A stretch of 64,000 bases of DNA from Paracoccaceae bacterium (GTDB lineage Bacteria; Pseudomonadota; Alphaproteobacteria; Rhodobacterales; Rhodobacteraceae): assembly GCA_902543185.1 (NCBI GenBank), contig CACBXB010000005.1:62001-126000 (forward strand), in the 5' to 3' direction. The notes under the pieces are model-generated. The model was given only the letters and a program-made list of their open reading frames with translations, made no database searches and was not told the DNA's origin. Below, one piece after another: positions 12,759 through 53,616 of the stretch (positions are counted from its first letter, which is position 1; each line of letters begins with the position of its first letter). Made by a program: the position numbers and the translations under genes.

Positions 12759-12763
12759 GTTTA

Positions 12764-14195: not shown

Positions 14196-14214
14196 GTTGA
14201 CCTCATTTTATTAA

Positions 14215-14245
14215 CGTATAAACTCTCCAGTAAGTGGAGTGTAAA
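14215..14245 (-). promoter_or_regulatory. MerR/CueR-type promoter for the DUF4396-like gene
   Basis: On the minus strand TTTACA (-35, at 14240-14245) and TATACG (-10, at 14215-14220) are separated by 19 bp, the overlong spacer typical of MerR-family promoters. A 21-bp imperfect dyad ACTCTCC-N7-GGAGTGT (14222-14242) fills the spacer and resembles the CueR box CCTTCC-N7-GGAAGG in layout. The regulator gene adjoins it. Confidence 0.65.
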
Positions 14246-14254
14246 GGATATATT

Positions 14255-15655: not shown

Positions 15656-15669
15656 GGCTCAATTATATT

Positions 15670-16491
15670 TTAAATTTCTTTTCTATAGATCCCATTACCT
15701 AATTGTTCGAACTTATGGTCTTTGGAGTTTAATACTTCTGCATCGCCCAAAAATATGAAACCACCTGCTTCAAGTGACTCAAAAATTTTATTTTCGGCGG
15801 CTAGTCTACTATCTTTATTTAAATAAATTAGGATGTTTCGGCAAAATATTATGTGAAATTTATTTTTAAACGGAAAAGTTTTTGAATTCAAATTGAGTTC
15901 TTTAAAATTGGCCTCTTTTCTTACTTTCTCTTTAAAACGCAGTTTTCCATCGTTTTCCTTTTCCGTGTATTTTGAAATTCTTTGGCGAATAATTTTATCC
16001 ATCTTTTTCGTTTCATAAATTCCTCTTGAGGCAATCTCCAGTGACTTTCTTGAAACATCAGTAGCCATAATACCACAAGTGATTTCCCAATACTCTTCAC
16101 CAAAGTATTCCATTAGAGAAACGAGGATTGAATAAGCTTCTTCGCCAGTAGAACATCCGGCACTCCAAATTCTCAAATCAATAGTATTTTTTTTGTCCAT
16201 ATTAGCCAGGCACTCAGGGATAACTTTGCATTTAAAGGCTTCAAATTGACGATTATTTCTAAAGAAATTTGTGTGAGGAATTAGAAAAATATCAAGTAAA
16301 TCAAATATTTTACTATCTTGAAAATCATATCTACGTTTGTTTAAGAAATCTTCTAAGTCCAAAATTTTATTTATTTTTTTGAATTTAGTTAACTCCGAAA
16401 GAGCAATTGGCTTTAGATTTTCTGAAAGATCAAGACCAAAGAATTTATTTGTGAATTCTATTACAGCTCGAGTTTCGTTTTCAGTTAGCAT
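15670..16491 (-). CDS. cheR: CheR-type chemoreceptor methyltransferase
   Basis: The 273-residue protein is a SAM-dependent glutamate methyltransferase. It has the CheR SAM-binding motif RIWSAGCSTGEEAYSI near residues 100-115, MATDVSRKSLEIASRGIYE, and FHIIFCRNILIYLNKDS near 212-228. An N-terminal helical domain of about 75 residues is present and there is no TPR tail. It lies between cheB and the receiver-cyclase gene with 4-14 bp gaps. The receptor in the operon lacks a C-terminal pentapeptide, so CheR must bind the signalling domain directly. Confidence 0.92.
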   Translation of the reverse strand: MLTENETRAVIEFTNKFFGLDLSENLKPIALSELTKFKKINKILDLEDFLNKRRYDFQDSKIFDLLDIFLIPHTNFFRNNRQFEAFKCKVIPECLANMDKKNTIDLRIWSAGCSTGEEAYSILVSLMEYFGEEYWEITCGIMATDVSRKSLEIASRGIYETKKMDKIIRQRISKYTEKENDGKLRFKEKVRKEANFKELNLNSKTFPFKNKFHIIFCRNILIYLNKDSRLAAENKIFESLEAGGFIFLGDAEVLNSKDHKFEQLGNGIYRKEI

Positions 16492-16495
16492 CGGC

Positions 16496-18511: not shown

Positions 18512-21414
18512 TCTTGCTTCCCACTCTTTAATTCTTCGTTTACAATAGACAGCTTAATATCCACCTCAGTAAGCAGAGCTGCCAAGTCTACGGGTTTTTC
18601 AAAAAAGTTGGAAACATCTAAATCTTCTAAGCGCGTCAGTATACTTTCTTTGTTAATATGTCCTCCTGATATGACGAAAATAGGAGTGTTCTTGTAAGAC
18701 GAAGTCTTTCTTAAATTTTCAATAAGTTCGTATCCATCCATTAAAGGCATTTGAATATCAACAAAAAATGCGTTAAAGTTTGTAGTATCAGCGGCTTTAA
18801 GAGCTTCAAAACCATCACCGGCTTCTTCGGTATTATAGCCTTGAATTTGTAAAAATTCACAAATCCTTTTCCTTTGCATTTTAGAGTCATCAACAACTAA
18901 AATTTTTTGCAAAGACCGTTTATGTTCCTCAGTGTCTAAATCCTGGACTTCTTCGGCAAGACTATTCGTTTCTTTTTCTGGATTATATTGAGTTAGTTCT
19001 AAAACGTTCAGAATTAAAACCAATTTACTGTTGGAGAGAATAGTACAACCTATTACAAAAGGAGCCGATTCAATCAAGTTCCCAAGTTGCTTTAATAATA
19101 CATTTTGTTGTCCTTGTACCTCGTCCACTATAACGCCAATTTTATTTTCACCATCGTTTAGAATAAGTAAAAATTTATTTTCTTCATATTTTGGGTTCTT
19201 AGGATAGCCAAGAAAATCCGATAAAAGGCGCGTTGGAACTAATTCGCCTCTGAAATTGAAAACTAATGTATCATTAATATTTTTAATATCAGTTTTCAGG
19301 TTCACATTAATTATCTCTTCTACATTTAAGATTGGAAAAGCAAATTCATATTTATTTTCAGAAACAAGTAGAATACCAACGACAGCTAATGTTAGCGGTA
19401 AACGCAATGTAATTTTAGTGCCCTGGCCAACTTTACTTTCAACTTTAATGGAACCTTGCATTTGATTGATTGATGTTTTCACAACATCCATACCAACGCC
19501 TCTTCCAGATAATTCTGTAACTTGCTCAGCTGATGAAAAACCTGGCTCAAAAATTAAATCAAATATTTCCTTTTCGCTTAACTCAGCAGCTCTTTCTGTA
19601 CTTAGCAATTTTTTTTCCACGGCTTTTGCTGCTATTATGTTGCTATCTATTCCCTTCCCATCATCTTCAATTTCAATAATTGCATTTGAACCTAAGTAAT
19701 ATGCGCTTAAATTGATTTGGCCTATTTCGGTTTTATTATTAGCTGCTCTTTGTTGATCCGTTTCAATTCCATGATCAATCGAATTTCTTATCAGGTGCAA
19801 GAGTGGGTCAGCTAATTGATTGATTAAAATTTTATCTAGCTCTGTTTCGCCACCCTGAATTTTCAATTCAACTTTTTTTCCAATTTGCCGTGCAATATCT
19901 CTAACTTGCGCTGGAAATCTATTGAAAAGATTAGAAATAGGTAGCATTCGGAAATTCATTGCACCGCTTTGTAGCCGCGAACTTAAAACTTCTAAATCCT
20001 CAATGTTCTTCTGCAAATTGGCATTATGGATAGCAATTTTTTCTAAGCCCATGTTAATGTCTGTTTGATATTTTGGTACGAAAGACAGATTGATATTTTT
20101 CTGATCAATTTCAGAAAGCTCTGACGAGAACTCTTTGTTTAGTGCTTCAATATCTTGATTAACTTGCTCGATTGCATCAGAAAGAAGCTTTTGATCATTA
20201 TCAAGCCTGATCCTATTTATGTAAACCTCTGAGGATGTGTTAAGGACGGTATCAAGTTTATCAGCTGAAACTTTTATAGATTCTTCCCTTACAATATTAG
20301 CAGTTGTCTTAGTTTTATTATCAGAAGGCTTTGTATCATTGAATTTTGCTGCCGTTTCTTCGGGTTTGGATTTTTCAATATTCTGTATATTGCGCTTATT
20401 TATTTCCACCGTGTCGTCATTGGATACGAGTGCTAATATTAGATCATTTATCTTTGTTTTAACTGGCCCTCTATGTGCGACTTCGTCCGTGATAATTCCA
20501 ATTCTTTTAATGCACTCTAAGGAAATATCTATTAATCGAGCATCAAGTGTTAATTTATCGGAACGAACATTATCCAAGACAGTTTCTAACTCATGGGAAA
20601 GTGTTTCAATTTTTTTTATTTCGATTAGCCTAGAGCCGCCCTTCACTGTATGAACTGCTCGGAAAAGTTCGTTTATCAATTCTTTTGAAGTAGGATTATT
20701 TTCTAGTTCTATTAACAGGTTTTCGCTCGCCTGAAGGCTTTCCCAAGCTTCTTCGCAGAAGTCACTTATTAACCCAACCTTATCATTCGGAATATCTAAA
20801 ACTTCATCTTGCTCTTCTTCGAGTTCTTCTAATTTTTTTGATGTCGATTTGGCACTTACTTGGGGGGAGGGCGCCGGTTTTTTTGCTTCAACGGTTTTTT
20901 CCTGAATTGCTTTGCTATTAGATAACCTTGCCTCTCTTTTCTCGACGGTTTCTTTTAATATTTCTGAAATTGGATCTGTTAAGTAAATAGCGCATTCAGA
21001 AACTACATCCGTGATGTCTAAACTGGTAGACTTACTTTTCCTTAGGTCTTTAATCACTTGAGCTAATTTTTCAATTAAAAGACCTAAAAGGTATGACATG
21101 GAATAATTTGAATATGTTTGAAAATATCTTGCACTGTCTGCAATCAACTCAGCCAACATACCTAAATGAGAAGTTTTTTGGCTCCCCATTATTTGACCAA
21201 ATCCTCTTATGAAGTGGCAATCAGTATAAGTTAGGTCAAATATTTCCTGTAAGTCATGATTTCCGGCTTCTATTTTTCCTATATAGGATCTTAGGTTCGA
21301 TATCTTATTATCTATAGCCGTAAGTATATGGCTTTCCTCAGCTGAACCGGGAAGCTTTTCATTTTTGTTATCTATATCCCAAGTTTCAAGGGCATTGCTG
21401 AGGTCTTGCAGCAT
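18508..21414 (-). CDS. cheA: Hybrid CheA histidine kinase with two HPt domains and a C-terminal receiver
   Basis: 968 residues. A first HPt-like domain covers about 30-130 (His67 in CHFIRGFGQIMG), a canonical HPt about 212-330 (His255 in FRAVHTVKGGSRL), dimerisation helices about 380-490, the HATPase domain about 495-675 (N box LLHLIRNSIDHG, G1 EDDGKGID, G2 ELSGRGVGMDVV), a CheW-like domain about 675-815, and a receiver 836-955 with Asp886 (FFVDIQMPLMDG) and Lys940. It autophosphorylates in response to the chemoreceptor and passes phosphate to receivers in itself and in the cyclase protein. The hybrid layout is like ChpA/FrzE systems rather than flagellar CheA. Confidence 0.92.
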   Translation of the reverse strand: MLQDLSNALETWDIDNKNEKLPGSAEESHILTAIDNKISNLRSYIGKIEAGNHDLQEIFDLTYTDCHFIRGFGQIMGSQKTSHLGMLAELIADSARYFQTYSNYSMSYLLGLLIEKLAQVIKDLRKSKSTSLDITDVVSECAIYLTDPISEILKETVEKREARLSNSKAIQEKTVEAKKPAPSPQVSAKSTSKKLEELEEEQDEVLDIPNDKVGLISDFCEEAWESLQASENLLIELENNPTSKELINELFRAVHTVKGGSRLIEIKKIETLSHELETVLDNVRSDKLTLDARLIDISLECIKRIGIITDEVAHRGPVKTKINDLILALVSNDDTVEINKRNIQNIEKSKPEETAAKFNDTKPSDNKTKTTANIVREESIKVSADKLDTVLNTSSEVYINRIRLDNDQKLLSDAIEQVNQDIEALNKEFSSELSEIDQKNINLSFVPKYQTDINMGLEKIAIHNANLQKNIEDLEVLSSRLQSGAMNFRMLPISNLFNRFPAQVRDIARQIGKKVELKIQGGETELDKILINQLADPLLHLIRNSIDHGIETDQQRAANNKTEIGQINLSAYYLGSNAIIEIEDDGKGIDSNIIAAKAVEKKLLSTERAAELSEKEIFDLIFEPGFSSAEQVTELSGRGVGMDVVKTSINQMQGSIKVESKVGQGTKITLRLPLTLAVVGILLVSENKYEFAFPILNVEEIINVNLKTDIKNINDTLVFNFRGELVPTRLLSDFLGYPKNPKYEENKFLLILNDGENKIGVIVDEVQGQQNVLLKQLGNLIESAPFVIGCTILSNSKLVLILNVLELTQYNPEKETNSLAEEVQDLDTEEHKRSLQKILVVDDSKMQRKRICEFLQIQGYNTEEAGDGFEALKAADTTNFNAFFVDIQMPLMDGYELIENLRKTSSYKNTPIFVISGGHINKESILTRLEDLDVSNFFEKPVDLAALLTEVDIKLSIVNEELKSGKQE

Positions 21415-21441
21415 TGTTAAGTTAAACCTTTTCTTCCCACA

Positions 21442-23325
21442 TTAATATCTGCCGAAATCTTGTTTGCTTTCTGATTTGTTTTCCTCATTTGAGGATGTGT
21501 CTGTTTCGTCAGTTTTGTCTTCTGAGGTATTCTCTTGATTTTCTTCTTTTTCATCGTTGATTTCTATGTCATCTTCAATCTCTGCTAACTTAAACTGCTT
21601 CACCAGGTCTTCTAGGTCGGGCACAATTTGTGCGAGTTCATTTGCGGAAACGGATAAGTTTGATGAGGCGAGGGCATTTTGTTGAATGACGTTATCAAGG
21701 GTTTTGATTGCCCCATTAATTTGCTCTGCACCAGTGGCTTGCTCTTTGGAAGATGCGCTAATGTTTTGAACAAGGTTTTGCGTTTTCTCAATCTCAGGTA
21801 GGAGCTCATCGAGCATTTGGTTAGTTTCGTCTGCTAACTTTTTGCCATCTGTCGATGATCTTTGTATTTCTGAAGCTGCGTCTTTACTGAGTTCAGCAAG
21901 CTTTGATACTTCAGAGGCAACAACAGCAAACCCCTTACCATGTTCTCCAGCTCTCGCAGCTTCTACCGAAGCATTAAGCGCCAATAGTTCAATCTTACGG
22001 GTAATTTCGCCAACGATAGCAATACGTTCAAAAATATCGCTCATTGCTTCTGATGTCTTCTTCATAGAGTTTGAGCACACAAGCGCGTTTTCAGCGAGTA
22101 GTTTTGCTGTTTCATCTGTCTCTGTGGCGTTTCTAGCATTTTCGTTAATCGTATTTGCCATCTCATCCATTGATGCAGATGTTTCTTGGACAGAAGTTGC
22201 CTGTTGGCTTGTTCCGTCTGATACTTGGTCAGCTGTTACTTCCAATTTTGAGGAGTTTTCAGATATTTTTTCAATCACTAGGCTCATAGCTCCAATAACT
22301 TCAACAATCTTATCACGCATCTGACTAGTTGAGATAAGAAGGCTACTGACCTCATCATTACCGGACGCTTTTATTTCAGCCGACAAATCGCCCTCAGTTA
22401 TTGCATTCACTGCAGAGTTTGCGTTGCGAAGCTTCGTTCTGATACCTGCTGTAAGTAGTAGCCCGAAAGTCAATGCTGCTAAAGTTGAGGCAATCCCCAC
22501 AATCAACGTCACATATAAAGATTGTGCCTGTGCACTATCCATCGATGAAAAAGCTAATTTTTTGGCTTCTTGGATTTCTCTGAATAAGTTAAGATAGCTT
22601 CCATCTTTTATAATATCCTGCAAAACTTTTTGTTTCTCAGCTAAGTTTGCATTCGCCTTTAAGATTTTTTCTTTAAGTTCGCTTAAGCTTTTTTTATACA
22701 AATTCGAATAGGGACTAAGCTGCGTTGAAGTTATAAATTCATTGTAAGCCAAGACAGCCTTTTTCACTCTATCTTGTGCTCTTTTAATGTCTCTATAATT
22801 ACCCTCTATCCCATCTAGAGCTGTGATAATTTTTTTATAAATTTTTATTGCTTCACCGCTAATTGGTGGTTCTACAAGTTCCTCCACCCTCTGTTTGATA
22901 GTAACTTTTCTAAATTTATTTGACTGCGCCTCTTTAACTATTTCATTGATTGTCATTTTGGCCTTTTGAAGATCATTAAACGCATCTTTCGAAAATTTAT
23001 CAGCTGTATTTATAGCTGCATTGAATTGGTCTCGACCTTCCTCAATCGCATTAAAATTGGTGCCTTGATCAGATCCGGCCAAACCCAATTCTAATGTAGC
23101 CCGTGTGACAAAAGCGGACGACTGAATAAGAGAAGCGTTCATATTGTTTATTTGTGTCTCCAAAGCAGACTCGATTTGGTTTAGCCGTTCAGTTTTTATC
23201 CCCATCGAATTTATAACGTACATTGCGTAGCCGCCAAATGATGCTAAAAGCAGAGCTAGTCCGAGCACCAGAAGCAAAATTTTTAAGGTTATTGTGAATT
23301 GAAAACTTTGCTTTTTAGCAGTCAT
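21442..23325 (-). CDS. Transmembrane methyl-accepting chemotaxis protein
   Basis: 627 residues. TM1 at about 15-37 and TM2 at about 269-293 bracket a 230-residue, mostly helical periplasmic sensor that I do not recognise. A HAMP domain follows, then the cytoplasmic coiled coil whose hairpin tip, with [20 protein letters not shown], lies near 440-476. The last 45 residues are a very acidic, Glu/Asp/Ser/Asn-rich tail ending QDFGRY, with no NWETF-type pentapeptide. It is the only receptor in the operon and so presumably feeds the CheA here through the double CheW protein. The ligand is unknown. Confidence 0.93.
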
Positions 23326-23375
23326 TTATTTACTCCGTTTTTTAGACTAAAGGTCTGCCTATTCATTACAAACAA

Positions 23376-24620
23376 TTAATTTTTTTGATATTCTTGTAGC
23401 TCTGGTGATTTAAGAAAGAGGTCTGGTTTAAAGATGAGTGTCACCTCACCTCCTGTTTCCTGAAAACTGGGAAAGTAATTTGGGATTTCATTTTGGAAAA
23501 CTTTGGTTGACTCCTGAAAGGACGATTGCCGAATAGACTGGATGCCTAGAACACGATCTATACAAAGAGCAAAATCTACTCCCGATACACTGACAACAAT
23601 AAATTTGTTACGCTCGTCTATTACCGTAAGTTCATGACCAAGATACTTTGAAAGATCTATACAGCTCAAAACTTGCCCACGCAGACTGATCAAGCCTCGA
23701 ATAAAATCTGCTACTTTGTATAGTGGAGTTACGTCTGATCCTTCAATAACCTCAAGAACTTTTGTGATTTCAATAGCGATTGTGCTGTTTTTTATTTTCG
23801 CGACCATGTAATCGTGGTGTAAATCGGTTAATTCTTCGTCACTAGGTTCGTTATCTATATCTTCTTCAGTTCCTACAGCTATCTGGTTTTTTAACTCTGA
23901 GAAAACCAGCACAGATATTTTTTCTGGTGAGAAAATGAAAAGATTTTGTTCTCCATACCAAACGATATCTTTTAAGAGATCGCTTGTATTTTCATCTTCA
24001 TATGCCGCTTCATTTTTATAGTTACTCGTGGATTTTATAGACACAATTCCAACATGCGTTTCCATCGTGAGTGCAAACATAATTCCTTTATAATTTACTG
24101 TAATGATGGCACTGGGCATTTTGTCTAAGTTATTACTTTCATCCTTTTTAATTTCACCAATCTTCAAATAGCTTTCCTGGCTTTGGAAAATAGGTAGGAG
24201 CTTTCCTCTGTATTCGGTAGTTCCAATACAAGACCTTAAAAACCCTTTCAGTGGTGAGATGGCGCCATAATCGTTTGTAATTTCTGTGACATAAGCTACC
24301 GGTATCCCGAAGAGAATTCCTCCGCATTCGTATACAAACACCTCACTTGTATTTATAATCTCGTCAATTTTTGGATCAGCACTTTGATTTATTTGACCCT
24401 CAATTGTGTCAACTTGTGAAATTTTTTGATGTTCTTTTTTGGTTAATTTTTTCTTCTTTGACTTTTTTACTTTGACTTGATCAATTTTTTCTTTTTTTTC
24501 TGGAGCAGTGACTACGGTTTTAGGTTGTTCAATCACAGAACTTGGCAGTGCATCAACTAATTGATTGAATTTTTCTTCCGAAATATTTTTTGGCGATATT
24601 TTGTCAAATTTTTTAGCCAA
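23376..24620 (-). CDS. cheW: Double CheW-domain coupling protein
   Basis: 414 residues. About 95 N-terminal residues are charged and rich in Lys (KSKKKKLTKKEHQK), probably disordered. Two CheW-like domains follow, about 100-240 (FVYECGGILFGIPVAYVTEI; PLKGFLRSCIGTTEYRGKLL) and 265-405 (YMVAKIKNSTIAIEITKVLE; YKVADFIRGLISLRGQVLSC). CheW couples receptors to CheA in the array; tandem CheW proteins occur in several alternative-function chemosensory systems. Gaps to the receptor and ParA genes are 50 and 3 bp. Confidence 0.85.
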   Translation of the reverse strand: MAKKFDKISPKNISEEKFNQLVDALPSSVIEQPKTVVTAPEKKEKIDQVKVKKSKKKKLTKKEHQKISQVDTIEGQINQSADPKIDEIINTSEVFVYECGGILFGIPVAYVTEITNDYGAISPLKGFLRSCIGTTEYRGKLLPIFQSQESYLKIGEIKKDESNNLDKMPSAIITVNYKGIMFALTMETHVGIVSIKSTSNYKNEAAYEDENTSDLLKDIVWYGEQNLFIFSPEKISVLVFSELKNQIAVGTEEDIDNEPSDEELTDLHHDYMVAKIKNSTIAIEITKVLEVIEGSDVTPLYKVADFIRGLISLRGQVLSCIDLSKYLGHELTVIDERNKFIVVSVSGVDFALCIDRVLGIQSIRQSSFQESTKVFQNEIPNYFPSFQETGGEVTLIFKPDLFLKSPELQEYQKN

Positions 24621-24623
24621 AAA

Positions 24624-25253
24624 TCAGGCCCCACGCTTAATCAAGTTCAATGCTTCATTTGTTAAGTCAACAATTTCTTCCGTTGCGGGTTTACTGTAAC
24701 CAATAACTGATATCTTATTAACATTAGTCTCTGCAAAGCAAACTCTTTGTGAAATGCAAGTTTTAGCAACTTGAACCCCATCTTCTTTAAGCTGTTCGAT
24801 TACATGCGATAAGATAGAGCTCCTTTTATTGACACCATTCAAAACGGTCAAAATTGGTGCTTTCTTTATATCTCGATTAGATTGCTTGAGAAAAACTTCA
24901 ATCCAACCTTGCCCGACTATATCGTCTCTAGAAACGCGGCATGGTGTGATAATCAAAGAAGATTGGAAAAGAAACTGAGCCATTTCTTTGGTTAGACTGC
25001 CCTGCGTATCTATCAGCATAAAATCAACATCAACATTTTCCGATGCCATAAACTCCGCTTGGTCAATAATTTCAACTCGGGATAATAATTTATCTTTTGT
25101 TCCAGTGATCCAATCTTGAGAACATTTTTGCTGATCTGCGTCTACTAGCGCTACTGAATAACCTTCGCGTATTAAAATAGCTGCCATATTAATACATAAT
25201 GTAGATTTTCCTGATCCCCCTTTAACATTTGCAAAAGTTACAACTTTAGCCAC
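24624..25253 (-). CDS. ParA/MinD-like ATPase, probably positioning the chemosensory array
   Basis: I take the start as GTG at 25253, 7 nt after AAGGA, giving a 209-residue protein beginning MAKVVTFANVKGGSGKSTLC. The deviant Walker A KGGSGKST with its signature Lys, VALVDADQQKCSQDW and MLIDTQGSL are ParA hallmarks. A longer form from ATG 25283 is possible. ParA homologues (PpfA, ParC) segregate or localise chemosensory clusters in other Proteobacteria. As the first gene of the che operon, that is the likely job here; no parB partner is present. Confidence 0.85.
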   Translation of the reverse strand: MAKVVTFANVKGGSGKSTLCINMAAILIREGYSVALVDADQQKCSQDWITGTKDKLLSRVEIIDQAEFMASENVDVDFMLIDTQGSLTKEMAQFLFQSSLIITPCRVSRDDIVGQGWIEVFLKQSNRDIKKAPILTVLNGVNKRSSILSHVIEQLKEDGVQVAKTCISQRVCFAETNVNKISVIGYSKPATEEIVDLTNEALNLIKRGA

Positions 25254-25433
25254 CTTAGCTTCCTTTTTGATTATTAAAAGCATCTGCTTTTAAGATTGAT
25301 AACACGGTATTTAGATCCAAAAATCAAGTTTCATGGATGTATGGTTGTAAAAACCGAAAATGTAAAAATGCTATCGCCAGCACTTTTTAAAAATGCTAAT
25401 GTAGGAAATCTGCTAATAAAAAGATATTTCACT

Positions 25434-37671: not shown

Positions 37672-38613
37672 ATGGAAACGTCCGCTGTGCTTCTTGAGAA
37701 GCCTGAGCGTCTATCTCTTGAAATGGTGGGGTTGAAAGACCCTGGCCAGGATGAGGTCGTTGTACGGGTTTTACATTCTGGAATTTCTACCGGAACAGAG
37801 AAATTATTATGGTCGGGTGCTATGCCGCCTTTTCCGGGTTTAGGATATCCTTTAGTGCCTGGTTATGAAGCAGTTGGAGAAATATTGGAGGCGCCAAAAG
37901 GAGCTTCTTTAAAAGTTGGAGATTTAGTTTTTGTTCCAGGATCTAATGGCTTTGTCGACGCCAAAGGCCTTTTTGGAGGTTCTGCCCGTCACTTAGTAAC
38001 ATCGATGAAGCGTGTTACTAAGATAAATAGCCAAATTGGAGAAAAAGGTGTCTTATATGCCTTGGCTGCCACAGCAAGACACGCGCTCACTGGTCCTGAC
38101 GCGAAATTTCCTGATCTAATCATAGGGCACGGTGCTCTTGGTCGTCTCCTAGCCCGAATAACAATAATTGCTGGAGGCAATCCCCCCACTGTCTGGGAAA
38201 TTGACGAAAAGCGGGCAGTTGGAGCCTTGGGCTATGAAGTGGTGCATCCAAATGACGATGAGAAGAATAATTATACTTCTGTTTTTGATGCATCTGGAAG
38301 ATCAGATTTATTAGATGATTGGATTGACCACTGCGCTGTGGGAGCTGAGATTGTGCTAGCAGGTTTTTATGCTGACAGAATAAATTTTGCTTTTCCTCAA
38401 GCTTTTATGAAGGAAATTAAAATACGGATATCAGCGGAATGGAAACAGGCCGATATGCGGGCTGTTAATTCAATGGTCGACGAGGGTCATCTTTCTCTTG
38501 ATGGCTTAATTACTAATCGAGCGGCTGCAGAAGATGCTGCATGGGCCTATCGGACAGCTTTTGAAGATGAAAGTTGCAGCAAAATGGTATTGGACTGGGG
38601 AAATCTACAATGA
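37672..38613 (+). CDS. bchC: Bacteriochlorophyllide a dehydrogenase (3-hydroxyethyl)
   Basis: 313 residues, ATG 37672 after GGAGGG. It is a zinc-type MDR fold protein (LGYPLVPGYEAVGEILEAPK; IIGHGALGRLLARI as the NAD site) of the BchC size. BchC oxidises the 3-hydroxyethyl group to acetyl, the last ring step before bacteriochlorophyllide a. It is the first gene of the bchCXYZ-pufQBA operon, overlapping bchX by 4 bp. Confidence 0.93.
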   Translation: METSAVLLEKPERLSLEMVGLKDPGQDEVVVRVLHSGISTGTEKLLWSGAMPPFPGLGYPLVPGYEAVGEILEAPKGASLKVGDLVFVPGSNGFVDAKGLFGGSARHLVTSMKRVTKINSQIGEKGVLYALAATARHALTGPDAKFPDLIIGHGALGRLLARITIIAGGNPPTVWEIDEKRAVGALGYEVVHPNDDEKNNYTSVFDASGRSDLLDDWIDHCAVGAEIVLAGFYADRINFAFPQAFMKEIKIRISAEWKQADMRAVNSMVDEGHLSLDGLITNRAAAEDAAWAYRTAFEDESCSKMVLDWGNLQ

Positions 38614-39623
38614 AAGACGAAGTGCCAAATTTAAAAGACTACTCTTCGCGTTTAAGGGAAGAGGCAAATATGGATTTGGCTGATATAAAGGCCGATGGAG
38701 AAATTAGTGAACCGACTAAAAAAACCCAAATTGTAGCTATTTACGGCAAAGGCGGTATTGGAAAATCATTCACCCTAGCAAACCTTTCTCATATGATGGC
38801 TGAACTTGGGAAAAGAGTTCTTCTTATAGGCTGTGATCCAAAATCTGATACAACTTCGCTTCTTTTTGGTGGAAAAGCCTGTCCCACAATAATCGAAACC
38901 TCTACTAAGAAAAAGCTAGCTGGGGAAGAAGTTAAGATTGGTGATGTTTGCTTCAAAAGAGGCGGTGTCTTTGCAATGGAGCTTGGCGGTCCTGAGGTTG
39001 GACGAGGTTGTGGTGGACGCGGGATTATCCATGGTTTTGAGCTACTCGAAAAACTTGGTTTTCATGATTGGGACTTTGACTACGTTCTTTTGGATTTTCT
39101 TGGTGATGTTGTCTGTGGAGGTTTTGGGCTCCCAATTGCGCGAGATATGGCGCAGAAAGTTATTTTAGTTGGCTCAAATGATTTACAATCTTTATATGTA
39201 GCTAATAATGTTTGCTCAGCTGTTGAGTATTTCCGAAAACTTGGAGGAAATGTCGGGGTTGCTGGTTTAGTAATTAATAAAGACGACGGAAGTGGAGAGG
39301 CAGCGGCTTTTGCGAAAGCTGTTGATATTCCGGTTCTAGCTTCAATTCCGCAAGATGATGACCTCAGAAAAAAATCAGCTAACTATCAGATTGTAGGCAC
39401 ATCACAAAGCCAATGGGGAGACTTATTTACTGAACTAGCTGAAGCTGTAGCCGGTGCGCCTCCAATGCGGCCAACGCCTTTGGACTCAGATGGTCTTTTA
39501 AACCTATTTGATAGTAAAGATACGGGCGGTGATTTTGTTCTAGTTCCCGCAACAGACGTTGATATGCGCGGAAAGAACTCAAAACCCAAAGTTTCCTTAG
39601 AAGTAGTTTACGACGAGGCTTGA
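38610..39623 (+). CDS. bchX: Chlorophyllide a reductase iron protein
   Basis: 337 residues from ATG 38610 (ATGA overlap with bchC). Walker [16 protein letters not shown] follows a 50-residue N-terminal extension. Cys in GRGCGGRG and [12 protein letters not shown] ligate the [4Fe-4S] cluster shared by the dimer. It passes electrons with ATP hydrolysis to BchYZ, which reduces ring B of chlorophyllide a. Overlaps bchY by one base (TGATG). Confidence 0.95.
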   Translation: MKDEVPNLKDYSSRLREEANMDLADIKADGEISEPTKKTQIVAIYGKGGIGKSFTLANLSHMMAELGKRVLLIGCDPKSDTTSLLFGGKACPTIIETSTKKKLAGEEVKIGDVCFKRGGVFAMELGGPEVGRGCGGRGIIHGFELLEKLGFHDWDFDYVLLDFLGDVVCGGFGLPIARDMAQKVILVGSNDLQSLYVANNVCSAVEYFRKLGGNVGVAGLVINKDDGSGEAAAFAKAVDIPVLASIPQDDDLRKKSANYQIVGTSQSQWGDLFTELAEAVAGAPPMRPTPLDSDGLLNLFDSKDTGGDFVLVPATDVDMRGKNSKPKVSLEVVYDEA

Positions 39624-41194
39624 TGGGAAACGAAATCACATATGATAATGCCTCTTCGGCTGAATTGATCACTCCGAAAGAACCGAACGATAGTCCGCAG
39701 GCTATTCTGGGCGGTGATGCATCAGATGTCGGTTGCCATTCGAATTCTACGCAGCTTTCTGCTCTTGCTAATAACAAAAATGCTCAGAGTCTTAAAAAGT
39801 ACGAAAAAGACTACCCGGTAGGTCCTCACGATAAGCCACAGTCTATGTGCCCAGCTTTTGGATCTCTCCGTGTGGGATTAAGAATGAAAAGAGTAGCAAC
39901 TGTTTTATCAGGCTCTGCTTGTTGCGTCTACGGATTGAGCTTTGTTAGCCATTTTTATGGTGCAAGGCGATCGGTTGGTTATGTTCCTTTTAATTCAGAA
40001 TCTTTGGTAACGGGAAAACTATTCGAAGATATTAGAGATGCAGTTCATGATATGGCTGATCCAAAAAATTATGATGCCATAGTAGTAACAAACCTTTGTG
40101 TTCCAACGGCAAGCGGTGTTCCACTTCGTCTTCTGCCTAATGAGATAAACGGAGTCAGAATTATTGGAATTGATGTACCTGGCTTTGGTGTACCTACTCA
40201 TGCCGAGGCAAAAGATATACTAGCTGGGGCGATGCTAAATTTTGCCCGGCAAGAGGTCGAAGCAGGACCTGTTGCGGCTCCATCTTCCGGCAAATCTGAT
40301 CGGCCAACATTAGCTATGCTTGGCGAAATGTTTCCAGCTGATCCGATGGTTATTGGTTCAATTTTGGCGCCAATGGATTTAGCGGCTGGGCCTGTTTTAC
40401 CAGCTCGAGAGTGGAGAGAAATGTATGCGGCTCTGGATTGTAGCGCTGTTGCTGCGATCCACCCATTTTATACTGCCACTATGCGAGAATTTGATGCTGC
40501 TGGCAGACCTTCCATCGGCAGTGCCCCTGTGGGATATGAAGGAACAGCATCTTGGTTAGAAAGCGTTGGTGAGGTTTTTGGTGTTTCAAAAGCAAAAATA
40601 TCCAAGGCAAAGAATGCTGTTCTTCCCAATATTAAAAAATCTTTAAAAGATAGTAAAATTAAAGGGCGAATTACGGTATCCGGTTATGAGGGTAGTGAAT
40701 TAATTGTAGCTAGACTTCTATCGGAGAGCGGAATTGATGTTCCTTATGTTGGAACAGCTTGTCCTCGTACACCTATGGCTGAACAAGATGCTCAGTGGCT
40801 TGAAGCTAAAGGGGCTGTAGTAAAATTTCGTGCTTCACTTGAAGATGATATATCAGCTGCCGAGGCACTTGAACCAGATTTAGCTATCGGAACGACGCCT
40901 TTAGTGCAGCATTTCAAGCAAAAGGGCAAATCAGCGCTCTATTTTACAAACCTTGTTTCAGCAAGGCCGCTGATGGGGCAGGCTGGTGTTGGAAGCTTCA
41001 ATCAATTGATAAATGGAGTTTTGAATAACTCCGATAAAATGCAAAGCCTTCAAAACTTTTTTGAAGGTGTAGGATCAGATGATACGTCGGGCGTATGGGA
41101 AGGTGAACCTAATTTAAGACCAGAATTTCGCGCTCAGAACCAGAAAAAGCTCGAAAAGGCTGCTAAGGCAGCCAAAGCACAGGAGATGATCTAA
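39623..41194 (+). CDS. bchY: Chlorophyllide a reductase subunit Y
   Basis: 523 residues from ATG 39623. Nitrogenase-like catalytic subunit; Cys residues likely to bind the [4Fe-4S] cluster occur in [25 protein letters not shown] and [10 protein letters not shown]. It pairs with BchZ. The N-terminal 75 residues are poorly conserved in appearance, and the tail is Lys/Ala-rich. Stop and bchZ start share one base. Confidence 0.95.
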
Positions 41195-42666
41195 TGTTGA
41201 TACAAGATCATGATCGTGCCGGCGGATATTGGGGGGCTGTCTACGCTTTCTGTGCGGTTAAAGGTTTGCAGGTTGTGATCGATGGTCCTGTTGGCTGTGA
41301 AAATCTTCCCGTTACTTCGGTTATGCATTATACAGATGGTCTGCCGCCGCATGAGCTGCCTATTGTAGTCACTGGGCTGGGTGAAGAGGAGCTTGGAAGA
41401 GACGGTACCGAGGGCGCTATGAAGAGGGCTTGGAAGACTTTGGATCCTGCATTGCCAGCTGTTGTTGTTACGGGCTCGATTGCCGAAATGATAGGTGGTG
41501 GTGTTACCCCTCAAGGTACATCAATCCAAAGGTTTTTGCCTAGGACGATCGATGAAGACCAGTGGCAGTGCGCTGACAGGGCAATGACTTGGATCTTTAC
41601 CGAGTTTGGAATGACAAAGGGACGAATGCCGCCCGAAAAGAAGAGACCGGAAGAATCAAAACCCCGAGTAAATATTTTGGGGCCAATGTATGGTACTTTT
41701 AATATGCCAAGTGACCTGGCCGAAATACGGCGACTAGTTGAAGGCATTGGTGCCGAAGTCAATATGGTAATGCCACTTGGAGCGCATTTGGCAGAAATGC
41801 GAGGATTAGTAAATGCAGATGCGAATATCTGTATGTACCGTGAATTCGGAAGAGGGTTGTGTGAAGTACTTGGTAAGCCTTATCTGCAAGCACCAATTGG
41901 GATGGAAAGTACCACAAAATTCCTGAGAAAATTGGGTGATATTTTAGAGCTGGACCCTGAGCCATTTATTGAAAAAGAAAAGCATTCTACATTAAAGCCT
42001 ATTTGGGATCTTTGGCGTTCAGTTACACAGGATTTTTTCGCTACTGCTGAATTTGCCATTGTTGCAAACGAAACTTACTCCCGCGGAATACGAAATTATC
42101 TTGAAACCGATTTTGGTTTTCCTTGTGCTTTTGCTGTTGGACGTATTGCAGGTAAAAAGACTGATAATGATGAGGTAAGAAAACTTTTCAGTGAAAAAAG
42201 GCCACTGATTGTTTTTGGTTCAATAAATGAAAAAATTTATCTTTCGGAACTAAAAGGTGGTCATGGGCCACAGCCTGCATTTATTCCAGCGTCATTTCCT
42301 GGAGCAGCCATCCGAAGAGCTACTGGCACGCCATTTATGGGTTATGCGGGAGCAACATATATTCTTCAGGAATTATGTAACGGGTTGTTCGATGCATTGT
42401 TTCATATTTTACCTCTCGCAAGTGAAATGGACGCGACTGAGGCTACTCCCGTTAATCTGAAAAAAGACTTGCCCTGGGATCCTGAGGCTCAAAGTGAATT
42501 AGATAGAATTGTAGCAACTCATCCTATTTTAACTAGGATTTCGGCAGCTAAAAAACTTCGAGATCAAGCGGAGGCGCAAACTTTAAAAGTTGGAGGCGAG
42601 CGCGTTGATCTTGAAACAGTATCCGCCCTTAGAAACCAAAACTTATCAGAAACAGATGGAGGTTAG
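41194..42666 (+). CDS. bchZ: Chlorophyllide a reductase subunit Z
   Basis: 490 residues from ATG 41194, opening [20 protein letters not shown] with [20 protein letters not shown], the BchZ cluster-binding region. The C-terminal domain ends [20 protein letters not shown], as in BchB/BchZ substrate-binding regions. It forms the heterotetramer with BchY that reduces chlorophyllide a. In Rhodobacter the puf promoter lies within this gene's end; pufQ follows after 4 bp here. Confidence 0.95.
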
Positions 42667-42670
42667 TGTT

Positions 42671-42892
42671 ATGTCAGAAATACTTCAAACGCATCAACGC
42701 CATAGAAAAAAAATTAACTATCGCTGGGAATATTCAGTGATATTTTGGTTAATTTTCTTAGCTGCAAGCCCGTTTTCAATGATCTTCTGGCTCATTGATA
42801 TGTATAGGAGAAAAAGTCTTTTTGTTGATGGTCCGGTCACCCGAGCATGGCTCGAAGCTCATAGGATCACACCAGTAATTTTCTCGGTCTGA
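42671..42892 (+). CDS. pufQ: PufQ
   Basis: 73 residues from ATG 42671, after GGAGG at 42659-42663; a longer upstream frame lies within bchZ and is rejected. One membrane segment YSVIFWLIFLAASPFSMIFW (about 24-43) and the C-terminal GPVTRAWLEAHRITPVIFSV match PufQ. PufQ assists bacteriochlorophyll supply and complex assembly; its exact role is unsettled. It leads into the antenna genes as in Rhodobacter. Confidence 0.88.
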   Translation: MSEILQTHQRHRKKINYRWEYSVIFWLIFLAASPFSMIFWLIDMYRRKSLFVDGPVTRAWLEAHRITPVIFSV

Positions 42893-42905: not shown

Positions 42906-43031
42906 ATGAGAGCTGTTCTGCACTTTGCAGATCAGAACCCCGAAGAGAATGAGTCTCGGAGGGACCCGGCCATAGGGGAACTGTGGCGCCATGAAACATT
43001 CTGGAGGATATTTCATGTCAAGCAAAAGTGA
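42906..43031 (+). CDS. PufK-like short reading frame overlapping pufB
   Basis: A 41-codon frame from ATG 42906 ends at TGA 43029-43031, 17 nt inside pufB. R. sphaeroides has a short gene, pufK, in this position, proposed to gate translation of pufB through its overlap and rare codons. Here the frame has rarely used codons (CGG, AGG, CCC, GGG) and no strong ribosome site. The product ([20 protein letters not shown]...) matches nothing I know. It may be regulatory or accidental. Confidence 0.35.
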
Positions 43032-43170
43032 CCTGTCTTTTACAGGTTTAACAGACGAACAGGCGCAGGAGTTGCATTCTGTTTATTTGAGTGGGATGTG
43101 GTTATTCGTAACTGCATGTATCTTAGCTCATGTAGCAACATACATCTACCGCCCTTGGTTCGCATTTTAG
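43015..43170 (+). CDS. pufB: Light-harvesting 1 beta polypeptide
   Basis: 51 residues starting at ATG 43015 after [27 protein letters not shown] is the typical beta N-terminus; His39 in [14 protein letters not shown] is the bacteriochlorophyll ligand and the WF end is characteristic. It pairs with PufA in the LH1 ring in the membrane. Confidence 0.97.
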
Positions 43171-43183: not shown

Positions 43184-43342
43184 ATGGCTAAATTCTATAA
43201 AATCTGGCTCGTTTTCGATCCACGCCGTGTGTTTGTTGCACAAGGTGTTTTCCTATTCTTGCTAGCAGCAATGATACATCTCGTTCTGCTTAGCACGGAG
43301 TACTTCAACTGGTTTGAATCAGCAGCAGCTGCAGCTGGTTAA
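43184..43342 (+). CDS. pufA: Light-harvesting 1 alpha polypeptide
   Basis: 52 residues from ATG 43184 after [26 protein letters not shown] is a typical LH1 alpha N-terminus and His32 in [18 protein letters not shown] ligates bacteriochlorophyll. The gene is followed by a hairpin and then dxs, whereas pufL would normally come next. Confidence 0.97.
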
Positions 43343-43377
43343 GCCTTTGATTTGTACAAGGTGAACTAAAAAAATAA

Positions 43378-43414
43378 TGCTACGGGCAATTGGCTTAGCA
43401 ACTTGCCCGTAGCA
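43378..43414 (+). terminator. Strong hairpin after pufBA
   Basis: TGCTACGGGCAA (43378-43389) and TTGCCCGTAGCA (43403-43414) form a perfect 12-bp stem with a 13-nt loop, 36 nt after pufA. No T-run follows. In Rhodobacter, hairpins at this place stabilise the pufBA segment against the less stable LM part of the mRNA; here there is no LM part downstream. Confidence 0.75.
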
Positions 43415-43491
43415 ACAAAATTATAATCAAATGTCGAGAGAAGAGATAGTATTGCCCAACAGTGCGGGGTGTTAACTTTAAGGGTAAAATA

Positions 43492-45438
43492 ATGTCCAAA
43501 AATCTAGAAAACCTTTTGCTAAATAAAGTTAAAACACCCAATGATCTGCGGCTTCTTAATGATGAACAGTTGGATCAGGTATCCAAGGAACTCCGAAATG
43601 AGGTTATCGAAGTGGTTTCTCAAACAGGAGGTCACTTAGGGTCATCACTTGGAGTGGTGGAGTTAACCGTAGCTTTACACGCAGTTTTTAATACTCCCTT
43701 TGATAAGCTAATTTGGGATGTTGGGCATCAGTGTTACCCACACAAAATAATCACAGAACGCCGAAATGATATGAGAAGTCTTCGGCAGAAGGGTGGTATA
43801 AGCGGATTTACGAAACGAAGTGAAAGTGAATATGATCCTTTTGGTGCTGCCCATAGCTCAACTTCAATATCAGCTGCTCTAGGCTTTACCATGGCTAGAG
43901 AATTAGGTCAGGCTATTGGTGATACGATTGCTGTTATAGGAGATGGTTCGATTACAGCAGGCATGGCCTATGAAGCCCTAAATAACGTTGGAAGCGAAAA
44001 TAAGAGAATGTTCGTGATCCTCAATGATAACGAAATGTCTATTGCGCCTCCAGTTGGCGCAATGTCATCTTACTTATCTACAATCAACTCACATCAAGCA
44101 TTCGAAAAATTAAAACTTTTTGGAGAAGAAATTGAAAGTCATTTACCTTCTACACTTAGAGAGGGGGCTAGAAGAGCAAGACAACTTGTAACTGGAAGAA
44201 GCCAATCAACATTTTTTGAAGATCTTGGTTTCAACTATCTTGGACCAATTGATGGGCATGATATGAGACAGTTGCTGTATGTTTTGCGTGCTGCAAAGTT
44301 TAGGTCAACTGGTCCAACCTTAATTCATGTTTGTACTAAAAAAGGGCATGGTTATGCACCAGCTGAAAACTCCGCTGATAAGTATCACGGAGTTTCAAAA
44401 TTCAATGTTCAGACTGGTCAGCAATCCAAGGCTCCAGCAAATGCTCCCTCATATACCAGTATTTTTGGCAAATCACTTCTTGAAGAAGCAAAGTTGGATA
44501 CAAGAGTGGTTGGGATAACAGCAGCCATGCCATCCGGAACGGGAATAAATATTCTTGCCAAAGAGTTGCCTGAACGTGTCTTTGACGTCGGTATAGCCGA
44601 ACAGCACGCAGTGACCTTCGCGGCTGGCCTTGCCGCCGGAGGGATGAAGCCATTTTGTGCGATTTATTCAACCTTTTTGCAACGCGCCTATGACCAAATT
44701 GTTCACGATGTAGCTTTGCAAAATCTTCCAGTACGTTTTGCCATTGATAGAGCAGGTTTAGTTGGAGCAGATGGCGCTACTCACGCTGGAGTATTTGATA
44801 TCTCATATATGTCTAACATTCCAAACATGACGGTTATGGCTGCTTCTGACGAAGCAGAATTAGTCCACATGGTTAGGACTGCGGCAGAATTTGATGAAGG
44901 GCCGGTTGCATTTAGATATCCTCGTGGGAATGGTACTGGTATTCAATTACCCCAAAGAGGTGAAATTCTCAAAATAGGCAAAGGGCGCATTATCCAAGAA
45001 GGAACTGATCTGGTCATCTTATCATTTGGTGCGCATATGAACTTGGTTAAGGATGCCGAAGTGGCTTTAGCTAAAATGGGTGTTAGTGTAACAATAGCTG
45101 ACGCAAGGTTTGCAAAACCATTAGACGTCGAACTTGTTGATCAGTTAATGGAAAATCACTCTTGTATGTTGACAGTTGAGCAAGGCTCAATGGGGGGCTT
45201 TGGAAGCATAGTACTGCAACATGTTAATAGGAACAGAAAAAGAAATGAAAATTTAGTATTTGATAGCATTTTTGTGGCTGATAGATTTATCGATCAAGCA
45301 GATGTTAACTCAATGTATGAAGATGCAGGTATGGGTATAAACGATATAATTGATAGAAGTATCAAATTATTAGAACAAAGTAGTCAAAATTGTCGGAAAT
45401 TTGATTTTGGTAATTTTAAAGAAAATGCAGTTTCTTAA
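43492..45438 (+). CDS. dxs: 1-deoxy-D-xylulose-5-phosphate synthase
   Basis: 648 residues from ATG 43492, after TAAGGG. The thiamine diphosphate motif GDGSITAGMAYEALNNVG is near residues 145-162, AHSSTSISAALGF near 120, and the transketolase pyrimidine domain with VGIAEQHAVTFAAGLAAGG near 365. It makes DXP, the first step of the MEP isoprenoid pathway, supplying carotenoids and phytol. A dxs copy after the puf operon is common in Rhodobacteraceae. Confidence 0.96.
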   Translation: MSKNLENLLLNKVKTPNDLRLLNDEQLDQVSKELRNEVIEVVSQTGGHLGSSLGVVELTVALHAVFNTPFDKLIWDVGHQCYPHKIITERRNDMRSLRQKGGISGFTKRSESEYDPFGAAHSSTSISAALGFTMARELGQAIGDTIAVIGDGSITAGMAYEALNNVGSENKRMFVILNDNEMSIAPPVGAMSSYLSTINSHQAFEKLKLFGEEIESHLPSTLREGARRARQLVTGRSQSTFFEDLGFNYLGPIDGHDMRQLLYVLRAAKFRSTGPTLIHVCTKKGHGYAPAENSADKYHGVSKFNVQTGQQSKAPANAPSYTSIFGKSLLEEAKLDTRVVGITAAMPSGTGINILAKELPERVFDVGIAEQHAVTFAAGLAAGGMKPFCAIYSTFLQRAYDQIVHDVALQNLPVRFAIDRAGLVGADGATHAGVFDISYMSNIPNMTVMAASDEAELVHMVRTAAEFDEGPVAFRYPRGNGTGIQLPQRGEILKIGKGRIIQEGTDLVILSFGAHMNLVKDAEVALAKMGVSVTIADARFAKPLDVELVDQLMENHSCMLTVEQGSMGGFGSIVLQHVNRNRKRNENLVFDSIFVADRFIDQADVNSMYEDAGMGINDIIDRSIKLLEQSSQNCRKFDFGNFKENAVS

Positions 45439-51192: not shown

Positions 51193-52605
51193 TTACATTT
51201 CAAACTTACTTAATTTTACATAGAGGCTCTGCCTGGAAAGGCCTAATAGGTCAGCTGCGGCAGCTCTATTATTATTCGTTATTTCTAGGGCAGCTTCTAT
51301 ACATATTTTTTCAATAACATCGGTTGTGTCAGTAACGATCTCTTTGAGAGTTGCGCTTCCGACTAACTCCTTTGCAGTAACTTCATCCTTATTTTTTTCC
51401 AAATTAGTGTTTGCGCCATAAACCCCAGCTCTATTACCAGGTGATGAAACTTCTCTTACTATAAACGCAACTAAACCATTGGTGTCAGAATTATTACGTG
51501 AAACTGAAGCTTCAATATCTATTTTAGTTCCAAAAGAGCTTTTCAAATGGGTAGAATAAATTTTAACAGCTCCAGATTTCATAACGTTTTCTAACATTAT
51601 GGCTAAGTCAATTTCTCCTCTGCCCAAAAACTCTGAAAGGTTTTTTGTAACAACCTCATTTTTGCGGCTAGTGTTCGTTAGATCCAAAAATCTTTCATTC
51701 GTATATTGGATTGCCCCTTTAACATCTGTGAAAATTATTGCGTCTGGACTGTTGTGAAATGTTGCAAGGAGATTCTCTATGAGCTCTTTTTCACCTTGTT
51801 TTCTGATTGTTTTCGGAAGAAATTTGCAGATAATAATCTGTTGTCCTGCTGCTCTATAAATATCAGGAGTTATCGAAAAAATCACTTCTCCGTTATTCGT
51901 ATTCAGCTCTTCACTTACGTCATAATTTCCATGGGCAGCTATGGAAATTTTTTCCATGAACCCTTTTCGCTCAGTTTTGTTAGCAAGAAAGGACTGCATC
52001 GACGTTTTTTCAACGATGACATCGTCATTAAAAAAGAACTCTTGAAACGCAGGGTTAGAAAAAACGATTTCACCTGACTTTGCATTTACAAAAGCCAAAG
52101 CATCATTTGTTTTGGCCAATAGCACTTTAAAATGCGCTTCTAATTCTCTTTTTTCCTCTATGCTTTCTTCAGCTACTATTTGAGCTTTAACAAACCTTTG
52201 TTGATTTTCTGATATTGATTGAAGATCGCGACCAAGCAAGATTATTTGCCCGTCTTTTCCAAGCCGGTGGATATTATATTTAATAGGAAACTGCCATTGT
52301 GCATTATCGATATGGTTAAGTTCCAAGCCATATAAGACTGTTTCGTCACTCTCCAACTTTTCAATCGCAGTTATAATTTTTGGAATACTTTCTGTGGTTA
52401 AAAAATCTGTGACTTTTCGTCCAATCCAATGGTTCAAGTTTCCATAAGATTTCTCTGCATTGTTGACCAAAATTGATGATATTTTGGTATCAGAATTTAA
52501 TAAAAGCGCAATATCGGAAGACGTTGCTAAAACTAGGCCCAGATGTTCTGGATCTATCATTGGAATCGAACCAAACTTCCAAATAGTATCTGGTTTCTGG
52601 TTCAT
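51193..52605 (-). CDS. ppsR: PpsR/CrtJ photosynthesis gene repressor
   Basis: 470 residues. Three PAS-like regions (about 20-130, 155-265 and 280-385) separated by a coiled linker, and a Fis-type helix-turn-helix at the end (NNRAAAADLLGLSRQSLYVK). Cys260 and Cys435 lie where the two redox-active cysteines of Rhodobacter PpsR/CrtJ are expected. It binds TGT-N12-ACA under oxygen and represses bch, crt and antenna genes; matching boxes are found at 32596, 32860, 35547, 37585, 51096, 53566 and 53599. It lies 2 bp after ppaA. Confidence 0.93.
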   Translation of the reverse strand: MNQKPDTIWKFGSIPMIDPEHLGLVLATSSDIALLLNSDTKISSILVNNAEKSYGNLNHWIGRKVTDFLTTESIPKIITAIEKLESDETVLYGLELNHIDNAQWQFPIKYNIHRLGKDGQIILLGRDLQSISENQQRFVKAQIVAEESIEEKRELEAHFKVLLAKTNDALAFVNAKSGEIVFSNPAFQEFFFNDDVIVEKTSMQSFLANKTERKGFMEKISIAAHGNYDVSEELNTNNGEVIFSITPDIYRAAGQQIIICKFLPKTIRKQGEKELIENLLATFHNSPDAIIFTDVKGAIQYTNERFLDLTNTSRKNEVVTKNLSEFLGRGEIDLAIMLENVMKSGAVKIYSTHLKSSFGTKIDIEASVSRNNSDTNGLVAFIVREVSSPGNRAGVYGANTNLEKNKDEVTAKELVGSATLKEIVTDTTDVIEKICIEAALEITNNNRAAAADLLGLSRQSLYVKLSKFEM

Positions 52606-53565: not shown

Positions 53566-53616
53566 TGTTCACATAAGTAGACACTTTTTGTAAGAGTGTG
53601 TAAGTTTTTATTGACA
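53566..53616 (+). promoter_or_regulatory. Tandem PpsR boxes upstream of bchF
   Basis: TGTTCACATAAGTAGACA (53566-53583) and TGTAAGTTTTTATTGACA (53599-53616) are two exact TGT-N12-ACA boxes, 33 bp apart (about three helical turns). The second holds TTGACA (53611-53616), a likely -35, and ends 7 bp before ATG 53624. They should control the bchFNBHLM-lhaA-puh superoperon. Confidence 0.8.

Follow-up and report, generated by a model that had tools for sequence, protein, structure and literature searches.

A stand-alone PufX-type cassette has very probably replaced the PufC reaction center repeatedly within one genus of Rhodobacteraceae

The window, the whole 64,000-nucleotide stretch of DNA analyzed here, comes from the draft genome of a Paracoccaceae bacterium (G000; 2.02 Mb, 49 contigs, 75% complete). 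On its forward strand, bchX-bchY-bchZ (38574–42666) lead into pufQ, which is retained at its canonical position (42671–42892; Pfam PF05398, 61.4 bits, cut-off 22.1). The genes for the LH1 antenna follow on the same strand: pufB for LH1 beta (43015–43170; NCBIfam NF040862, 65.8 bits, cut-off 61; PF00556) and pufA for LH1 alpha (43184–43342; NCBIfam NF040861, 75.5 bits, cut-off 35; PF00556). As an earlier note on this DNA had stated, pufA ends at 43342 and the next gene is dxs (43492–45438, forward strand), an open frame with homologues at the same position in relatives; the 149 bp between them contain no pufL, pufM, pufC, or pufX gene. Near the other end of the cluster, puhA starts at 63548 on the forward strand and runs past the window end at 64000, and beyond it (stretch L174) lie puhB, a puhC scar described below, acsF, puhE, and hemA. 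The regulator gene ppsR occupies 51193–52605 on the reverse strand (TIGR02040, 330.6 bits, cut-off 275.4). Apart from photosynthesis, the window holds a chemotaxis-like cluster (14651–25283) with CheB-, CheR-, CheA-, MCP-, and CheW-like frames named by eye, in which 16496–18511 encodes a protein with receiver domains and an adenylate-cyclase-like domain.

The hairpin that the note placed downstream of pufA is predicted at 43378–43414 (forward strand). The 88-nt segment 43343–43430 has a folding energy of -26.5 kcal/mol (z -3.99), and the stem aligns with the pufA-pufL intercistronic hairpin of two relatives with an intact operon, G164 and G296. It probably now forms the 3′ boundary of the antenna message. 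The note had also found no readable remnant of the missing genes, a statement that does not survive alignment. Positions 43436–43458 (forward strand) match the ribosome-binding site and start of G164 pufL at 20 of 23 bases, with a score of 17 and a z of 5.5 (500 mononucleotide shuffles, the best of which scored 15). This scar, in which the start ATG has become ATA, also emerges from an alignment of five split genomes of the same clade. On the right side of the deletion, 43421–43490 aligns with the G164 pufC-dxs spacer, with 48 of 66 bases identical (z 7.8) and the closest agreement from 43451 onward, which marks 43451–43491 (forward strand) as a remnant of the native spacer. The motif GCATTG is common to both break regions in G164, and deletion by microhomology at this motif is possible in the window's lineage.

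A search of the rest of the genome, which the note had proposed, recovered intact pufL and pufM on contig C8 (90684–92346). Phototrophy is thus not lost in this genome, and the suggested antenna without L and M does not apply. Within the stretch L003 (C8:78000–97900), a pseudoazurin gene on the reverse strand (L003:11050–11544; TIGR02375, 137.3 bits, cut-off 109.85) stands back to back with four genes on the forward strand: puhC (11981–12412; TIGR03054, 84.7 bits, cut-off 55), pufL (12598–13446; TIGR01157, 429 bits, cut-off 266.2), pufM (13439–14362; TIGR01115, 515.1 bits, cut-off 364.25), and pufX (14381–14593; PF11511, 39.8 bits, cut-off 25). Both reaction center genes exceed the cut-offs of their equivalog models, and the best matches among solved structures are 7f0l chain M and 8ygd chain L. 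The pufC model PF02276 has no match in the genome as assembled; pufX lies 3′ of pufM instead. All of these genes are outside the window, and in place of the canonical pufQBALMX-dxs arrangement the genome has pufQBA-dxs in the window and pufLMX on C8. A 63-codon frame 3′ of pufX (L003:14714–14905) is conserved in the window's clade (78% in G305, 58% in G299); 47 of its residues were compared with Pfam and gave no match.

We call this unit a cassette as a comparative term. By-eye reading of the open frames in roughly 5–12 kb around it turned up no integrase-, conjugation-, or transposition-like genes, and its two flanks in the window genome share no 15-mer. One side is occupied by glnA, glnB, and an oxidoreductase gene, and the other by DoxX and the trigger factor gene (tig), all named by eye. 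The C8 stretch has a GC content of 39.4%, compared to 39.7% in the window. Its glnA, glnB, purB, and tig are 96–99% identical to their counterparts in a related genome, G301, where they share one contig with the cassette; the other neighbors are 65–98% identical. The units of the window genome and of the more distant G304 resemble each other (about 71% at the DNA level) in two segments, pseudoazurin and the part that starts inside puhC and reaches pufX, but not outside. The cassette PuhC proteins form a clade of their own (98/97) apart from native PuhC, in a part of the tree with long branches.

The genus sample comprises 16 genomes, all draft. Because several are only 53–77% complete, absences from single genomes mean little. 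A pufB or pufA match is present in 10 of the 16 and pufLM in 11. In seven of the 10 (G000, G298, G299, G300, G304, G305, and G306), pufA is followed directly by dxs, and these junctions carry lineage-specific scars, which speaks against the note's suggestion that the assembly had dropped a segment. Only two of the 10, G164 and G296, retain pufQBALMC-dxs, with genes of the PufC lineage; in G295 the operon is interrupted by a contig end. In nine of the 11 genomes with pufLM these genes sit in a separate puhC-pufLMX unit, the canonical operon accounting for G164 and G296, which are also the only two of the 16 with PufC. Pseudoazurin adjoins puhC-pufLMX in all 10 cassette copies of the nine genomes. 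One of them, AH-326-E22 (G306), contains both halves, pufQBA-dxs and the cassette. No genome among the 16 was seen to carry PufX and PufC operons together.

Two genomes in this sample deserve separate mention. G299 has one of each clade type (L160 on C76, L165 on C44), and PufLM of the C76 copy hardly differ from those of NAT183 (G297), perhaps through a misplaced contig or a recent transfer. In G305, pufL is broken into two frames (L164, C29, near 7600; model matches 1–126 and 124–260), which could be an assembly fault or a sign of gene decay.

Outside the genus, the split order is exceptional. Among the 122 family-sample genomes with pufLM, pufBA precedes pufL in all 30 loci examined (L004–L033). 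In a second set, which overlaps the first in some species, pufA lies upstream of pufL in 71 of 72 uncut loci (L057–L133; 77 loci, five of them cut); the exception is L058, discussed below. Two further arrangements came to light. In L035 (G281:C20), pufM is directly followed by dxs with neither pufC nor pufX recognized, and a pseudoazurin gene follows hemA on the same contig. In L036 (G033:C27), the puf operon separates bchX from bchY, the order being bchX-pufQBALMX-pseudoazurin-bchYZ-dxs.

Comparison with G164 separates the reaction center genes from everything around them. Identity between this genome and the window's is 91–98% for BchXYZ, PufBA, and Dxs (PufB 96%, PufA 98%) and 88% for PufQ, but only 75% for PufL and 70% for PufM. 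A quick PufLM tree covered 90 of 124 rows from 129 loci, thinned by locus number, after five loci with incomplete or broken genes, G305 among them, had been dropped; a careful tree was then restricted to 33 chosen rows. In the careful tree, the genus cassettes form one clade (eight rows, 100/99) in the PufX half of the family, while G164 and G296 group with G115 (100/98) in the PufC half. A constraint that keeps the genus together is rejected for this tree (AU p 1.4e-5). In a backbone tree of BchXYZ and Dxs, by contrast, the genus is a single clade (100/100) that contains two clades. Clade 1 is the window's and includes the joined G164; clade 2 includes the split G304 and G306 and the joined G296, with G295 beside G296. 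Grouping the split genomes as one clade is rejected here as well (AU p 5e-5).

This backbone consists of photosynthesis-cluster genes, which are themselves transferable. The marker gene rpoB was found in 11 of the 16 genus genomes but not in the window's own assembly. Identities of trigger factor, whose gene lies apart from the cluster, reproduce the two clades: 91–96% within the window's clade including G164, and 72–73% to G295, G302, G304, and G306. The locus L057, a canonical pufQBALMX-dxs operon, is the backbone neighbor of the genus plus G115 and joins the cassettes on the PufLM tree. Given these two positions, the cassette could instead be a long-established PufX operon of native origin that changed place while PufC genes came in.

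The scars at the canonical site differ between the clades. Those of G304 and G306 consist of the leader and about 36 bp of pufL (length by eye), followed by a pufC-dxs spacer like that of G296; the alignments to G296 cover 78 of 98 bases in G304 and 83 of 100 in G306. Against the pufA-pufL region of G296 the scar reaches a z of 32.7 in G306 and 20.5 in G304. The G306 scar gives a z of only 7.8 against L057 and of 1.9 against the start of the cassette pufL in G304. The two different break points in pufL imply two deletions. The earlier note had considered that the reaction center genes might have moved, and they do lie elsewhere in the genome, but they are PufX-type and belong to another lineage than the native PufC type. 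The candidate explanation that the same genes moved was rejected on the position of PufLM in opposite halves of the tree together with the scars of a PufC-type operon. By these comparisons, the history of pufLM is one of replacement plus deletion and not of simple movement.

In the window's lineage the loss extends to a further gene. Between puhB and acsF (L174:2997–3071) lies a native puhC scar of 24 codons that joins the first and last puhC codons; its two parts match G164 at 37 of 41 and 33 of 35 aligned bases, and the corresponding values in G298 are 32 of 39 and 34 of 34. Between hemA and bchO, where G164 has a cytochrome c2-like gene, no cytochrome gene is present in the window genome or G298. 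The clade-2 genomes G304, G306, and G297 have kept native puhC and the cytochrome c2-like gene beside the cassette puhC. The window genome encodes another c-type cytochrome at L270:3343–3858.

The cassette occupies a different site in each clade. In clade 1 it lies between the oxidoreductase gene and tig, a place where G164 has another gene and no cassette; the G164 gene resembles an iron-type alcohol dehydrogenase (L228, C59, 2969–4247; named by eye). In clade 2 the cassette adjoins a rhomboid-like gene. In G295 and G296, that gene stands directly beside the one that in G304 follows pseudoazurin, the cassette, and three further genes, so that the site is empty both in G296 and in its sister G295.

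A related module turned up outside the genus in bin.50 (L058, genome G309), which carries puhB-puhC-pufQ-pufLMX on one contig. A second contig holds pufQBA-dxs as well as puhA-puhB-acsF, and no match to puhC separates puhB from acsF there. Its backbone genes group with those of the PufC-type genomes G289 and G167, while its PufLM group with the cassettes (100/100 with L057). Placing bin.50 as sister of the genus on the backbone tree is rejected (AU p 2.8e-7). No other observation speaks as strongly for movement of the module between lineages as this conflict between backbone and PufLM. No pseudoazurin gene was found near the bin.50 cassette in the stretches read.

Separation from the antenna genes raises the question of how the two halves are expressed together. 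All 10 genus cassette copies have two TGT-N12-ACA palindromes between puhC and pufL, and their distance to pufL varies by at most 2 bp within each clade. Simulated 200-bp stretches contain at least one such palindrome with a chance of 0.03, or 0.001 for the strict form. None occurs within 200 bp of pufL in the canonical loci L057, G164, and G296. In the window, a similar tandem pair lies upstream of bchF (53566–53616, unstranded), and the product of ppsR is the likely regulator of the relocated pufL promoter. The bin.50 cassette has its tandem pair between puhC and pufQ (L058:6623 and 6649), in the same place relative to puhC, and none within 200 bp of pufL. These patterns suggest that the cassette is a PpsR-controlled unit. 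The note had predicted that relocation would separate antenna from reaction center expression. The tandem palindromes that relocated pufL has of its own support that prediction in part. PpsR control would re-coordinate antenna and reaction center through the regulator instead of the operon. Since LH1 is nearly identical in the window genome and G164, one antenna type must serve both types of reaction center.

The constant presence of pseudoazurin beside the cassette points to a possible electron donor. In an alignment with the solved pseudoazurin 5yw3, the His, Cys, His, and Met residues that we take to be the type-1 copper ligands line up with those of the cassette protein. Pseudoazurin was not found in the PufC genomes G164 (96% complete) and G296 (95%), and G295 has only a 49% homologue. 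Elsewhere in the family, the gene lies inside the operon in G033 (pufQBALMX-pseudoazurin-bchYZ), after hemA in G281 and G230, where G164 has its cytochrome c2-like gene, beside dxs in G082, and, by eye, near bchO in G253.

Across the family sample, pufLM is present in 25 of 62 pseudoazurin carriers and in 97 of 233 noncarriers (Fisher p 0.89), which argues against a general dependence of pufLM on pseudoazurin. Among 24 other genomes with both above the cut-off, pseudoazurin is linked to the photosynthesis gene cluster in at least four (G033, G082, G281, and G253), with G091, G139, G224, G251, and G264 counted as unlinked. The G253 copy sits at the threshold (109.9 / 109.4 bits, cut-off 109.85), and the linked copy of G230 falls just below it (108.1 bits). 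The binomial probability of four in 24, 3.5e-4, was calculated post hoc, on the assumption of a 50-kb target within 3.5 Mb. Judged from gene linkage, it is plausible, with the chances about evenly balanced, that linked pseudoazurin serves as a copper electron donor of the reaction center. Besides the missing co-occurrence, such a role has against it the bin.50 cassette, near which no pseudoazurin was found in the stretches read, the cytochrome c2-like gene of clade 2, and the other c-type cytochrome gene of the window genome. A genus-wide exchange of cytochrome c2 for pseudoazurin was also considered; it holds in the window's clade only, as G297, G304, and G306 keep the cytochrome c2-like gene.

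Pseudoazurin is classically tied to denitrification. The gene might accordingly be a hitchhiker unrelated to photosynthesis, an explanation to which we give appreciably less than an even chance. It would fit the 37 of 62 family-sample carriers above the cut-off that have no pufLM, the denitrification tie, and the failure to find pseudoazurin near the bin.50 cassette. It fits less well with a gene that accompanies every genus copy at two separate sites, was not found in G164 and G296, and is linked to the photosynthesis cluster in the five other genomes named above (G033, G281, G230, G082, and, by eye, G253).

We consider it very probable that a tetraheme (PufC) reaction center was repeatedly replaced by a stand-alone PufX cassette. 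The ancestor would have had an ordinary pufQBALMC operon and a reaction center with tetraheme cytochrome. A cassette, perhaps of horizontal origin, with a PufX-type reaction center, its own assembly factor, and its own promoter would have become established at another chromosomal site. After an intermediate that may have held two reaction centers, native pufLMC, by then redundant, would have been excised where it stood, and pufQBA, the hairpin, and dxs would have stayed behind. The window's lineage lost its native puhC as well and has no cytochrome c2-like gene between hemA and bchO. Resident LH1 would now have to assemble around a reaction center of another lineage, and the PpsR sites in front of relocated pufL probably hold the cassette in step with bchF and other genes. 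Two scars and two cassette sites suggest that native pufLMC was deleted at least twice in the genus, and gene order and trees suggest that the same replacement took place once more in the unrelated bin.50.

An artefact of assembly or binning, in which pufLM(C) was dropped from 43343–43491 or C8 is foreign to the genome, is the least credible of the alternatives and very improbable. Such an error could be imagined in a 75%-complete draft of 49 contigs, and G299, with cassettes of both clades, may contain a misplaced contig. However, it would have to recur in seven genomes with lineage-specific scars, and it does not explain why the C8 neighbors match G301, where the cassette is on the same contig, why C8 and the window agree in GC content, or why AH-326-E22 has both halves. 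Simple relocation, with native pufLM moving within the genome and diverging there, also seems unlikely. The positions of L057 would allow the cassette to descend from an ancestral PufX operon of the wider lineage, but the scar at the canonical site resembles a PufC operon and not the cassette (z 32.7 for G306 against G296, 1.9 against the cassette), the right side of the clade-2 scar is a G296-like pufC-dxs spacer, and a related cassette occurs in bin.50, which the backbone tree places far away.

Closer to our own reading is a special form of replacement with one ancestral cassette gain in the genus, reciprocal loss (of pufLMC in some lineages, of the cassette in others), and one later change of site, a serious possibility that we place somewhat short of even. 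In PufLM and PuhC alike, the cassettes of the two clades are each other's sister groups, and the seven COR-cluster genomes reported with both operons (PMC12661815) are the intermediate that it would predict. Speaking against it are the different insertion sites of the two clades, the empty sites in G164 and G295/G296, and the different break points in pufL.

Replacement of a PufC-type by a PufX-type reaction center has a precedent in Rhodobacteraceae, where Brinkmann et al. (2018; PMC6052148), in the part of the paper available, describe a change from pufC to pufX that occurred only once and always after pufQBALM and before dxs. There, the change spread with the complete gene cluster; here, it concerns the reaction center genes only, at a separate locus, and several times, and the antenna genes remain where they were. 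Citromicrobium JL354 likewise has a stand-alone reaction center cluster without antenna genes, an extra pufLMC-puhCBA that is believed to have arrived by horizontal transfer, within an integrative conjugative element (PMC3338782). That cluster is a second copy beside a complete one and carries pufC, whereas here the only pufLM found is PufX-type, puhC alone represents the puh genes, pseudoazurin adjoins, and the native genes are deleted. COR-cluster Roseobacter similarly combine pufLMX and pufLMC within one pelagic lineage, seven genomes having both (PMC12661815, 2025); the available portion of that report does not describe gene order, separation from pufBA, scars, or linked puhC and pseudoazurin. 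By its size, GC content, and oceanic names, our genus is probably part of COR. The NOR5/OM60 clade also departs from the pufBALM order, with pufLMC-BA, through a switch of order within the cluster and not a split (PMC3176799).

For the electron donor, the place of cytochrome c2 in Rhodobacter sphaeroides can be taken by a cyanobacterial plastocyanin (PMC12493188, 2025), so that a blue copper protein is able to supply a PufX-type reaction center with electrons in vivo. The protein in that case was introduced, unlike the putative donor here, whose native gene is linked to the reaction center genes. Erythrobacter sp. JL475 similarly has a pseudoazurin gene inserted in its photosynthesis gene cluster, mentioned in a single sentence and with no role proposed in the accessible text (PMC4919336). 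A 2025 review, as far as its available text goes, states that no known phototroph has both pufC and pufX (PMC12654162). Deletion of native genes with the antenna left behind is not described in the related literature to the extent that it was accessible; Yutin and Beja 2005 and Yutin 2007 (GOS) may hold a split order.

Taken together, these observations admit a broader reading, which we hold tentatively and put just short of an even chance. A transferable cassette with PuhC, a ring-opening PufX, PpsR-type sites, and, in this genus, pseudoazurin would repeatedly displace the iron-rich PufC reaction center while the resident antenna is kept. With native puhC deleted and the cytochrome c2-like gene absent, the photosystem of the window's lineage would have been rewired to run on copper in place of heme, with a saving of iron in the open ocean as the benefit.

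The change from pufC to pufX, earlier described as a single event at a fixed place (PMC6052148), contrasts with the pattern in this genus. In surveys, ocean phototrophs are assigned to groups on the basis of pufM (PMC10497671), a gene that may here be foreign to the rest of the cluster. With near-identical LH1 and two types of reaction center in one genus, the roles of PufX and PufC become testable, as do the part-wise exchange of antenna and reaction center and the replacement of a heme donor by a copper protein in nature.
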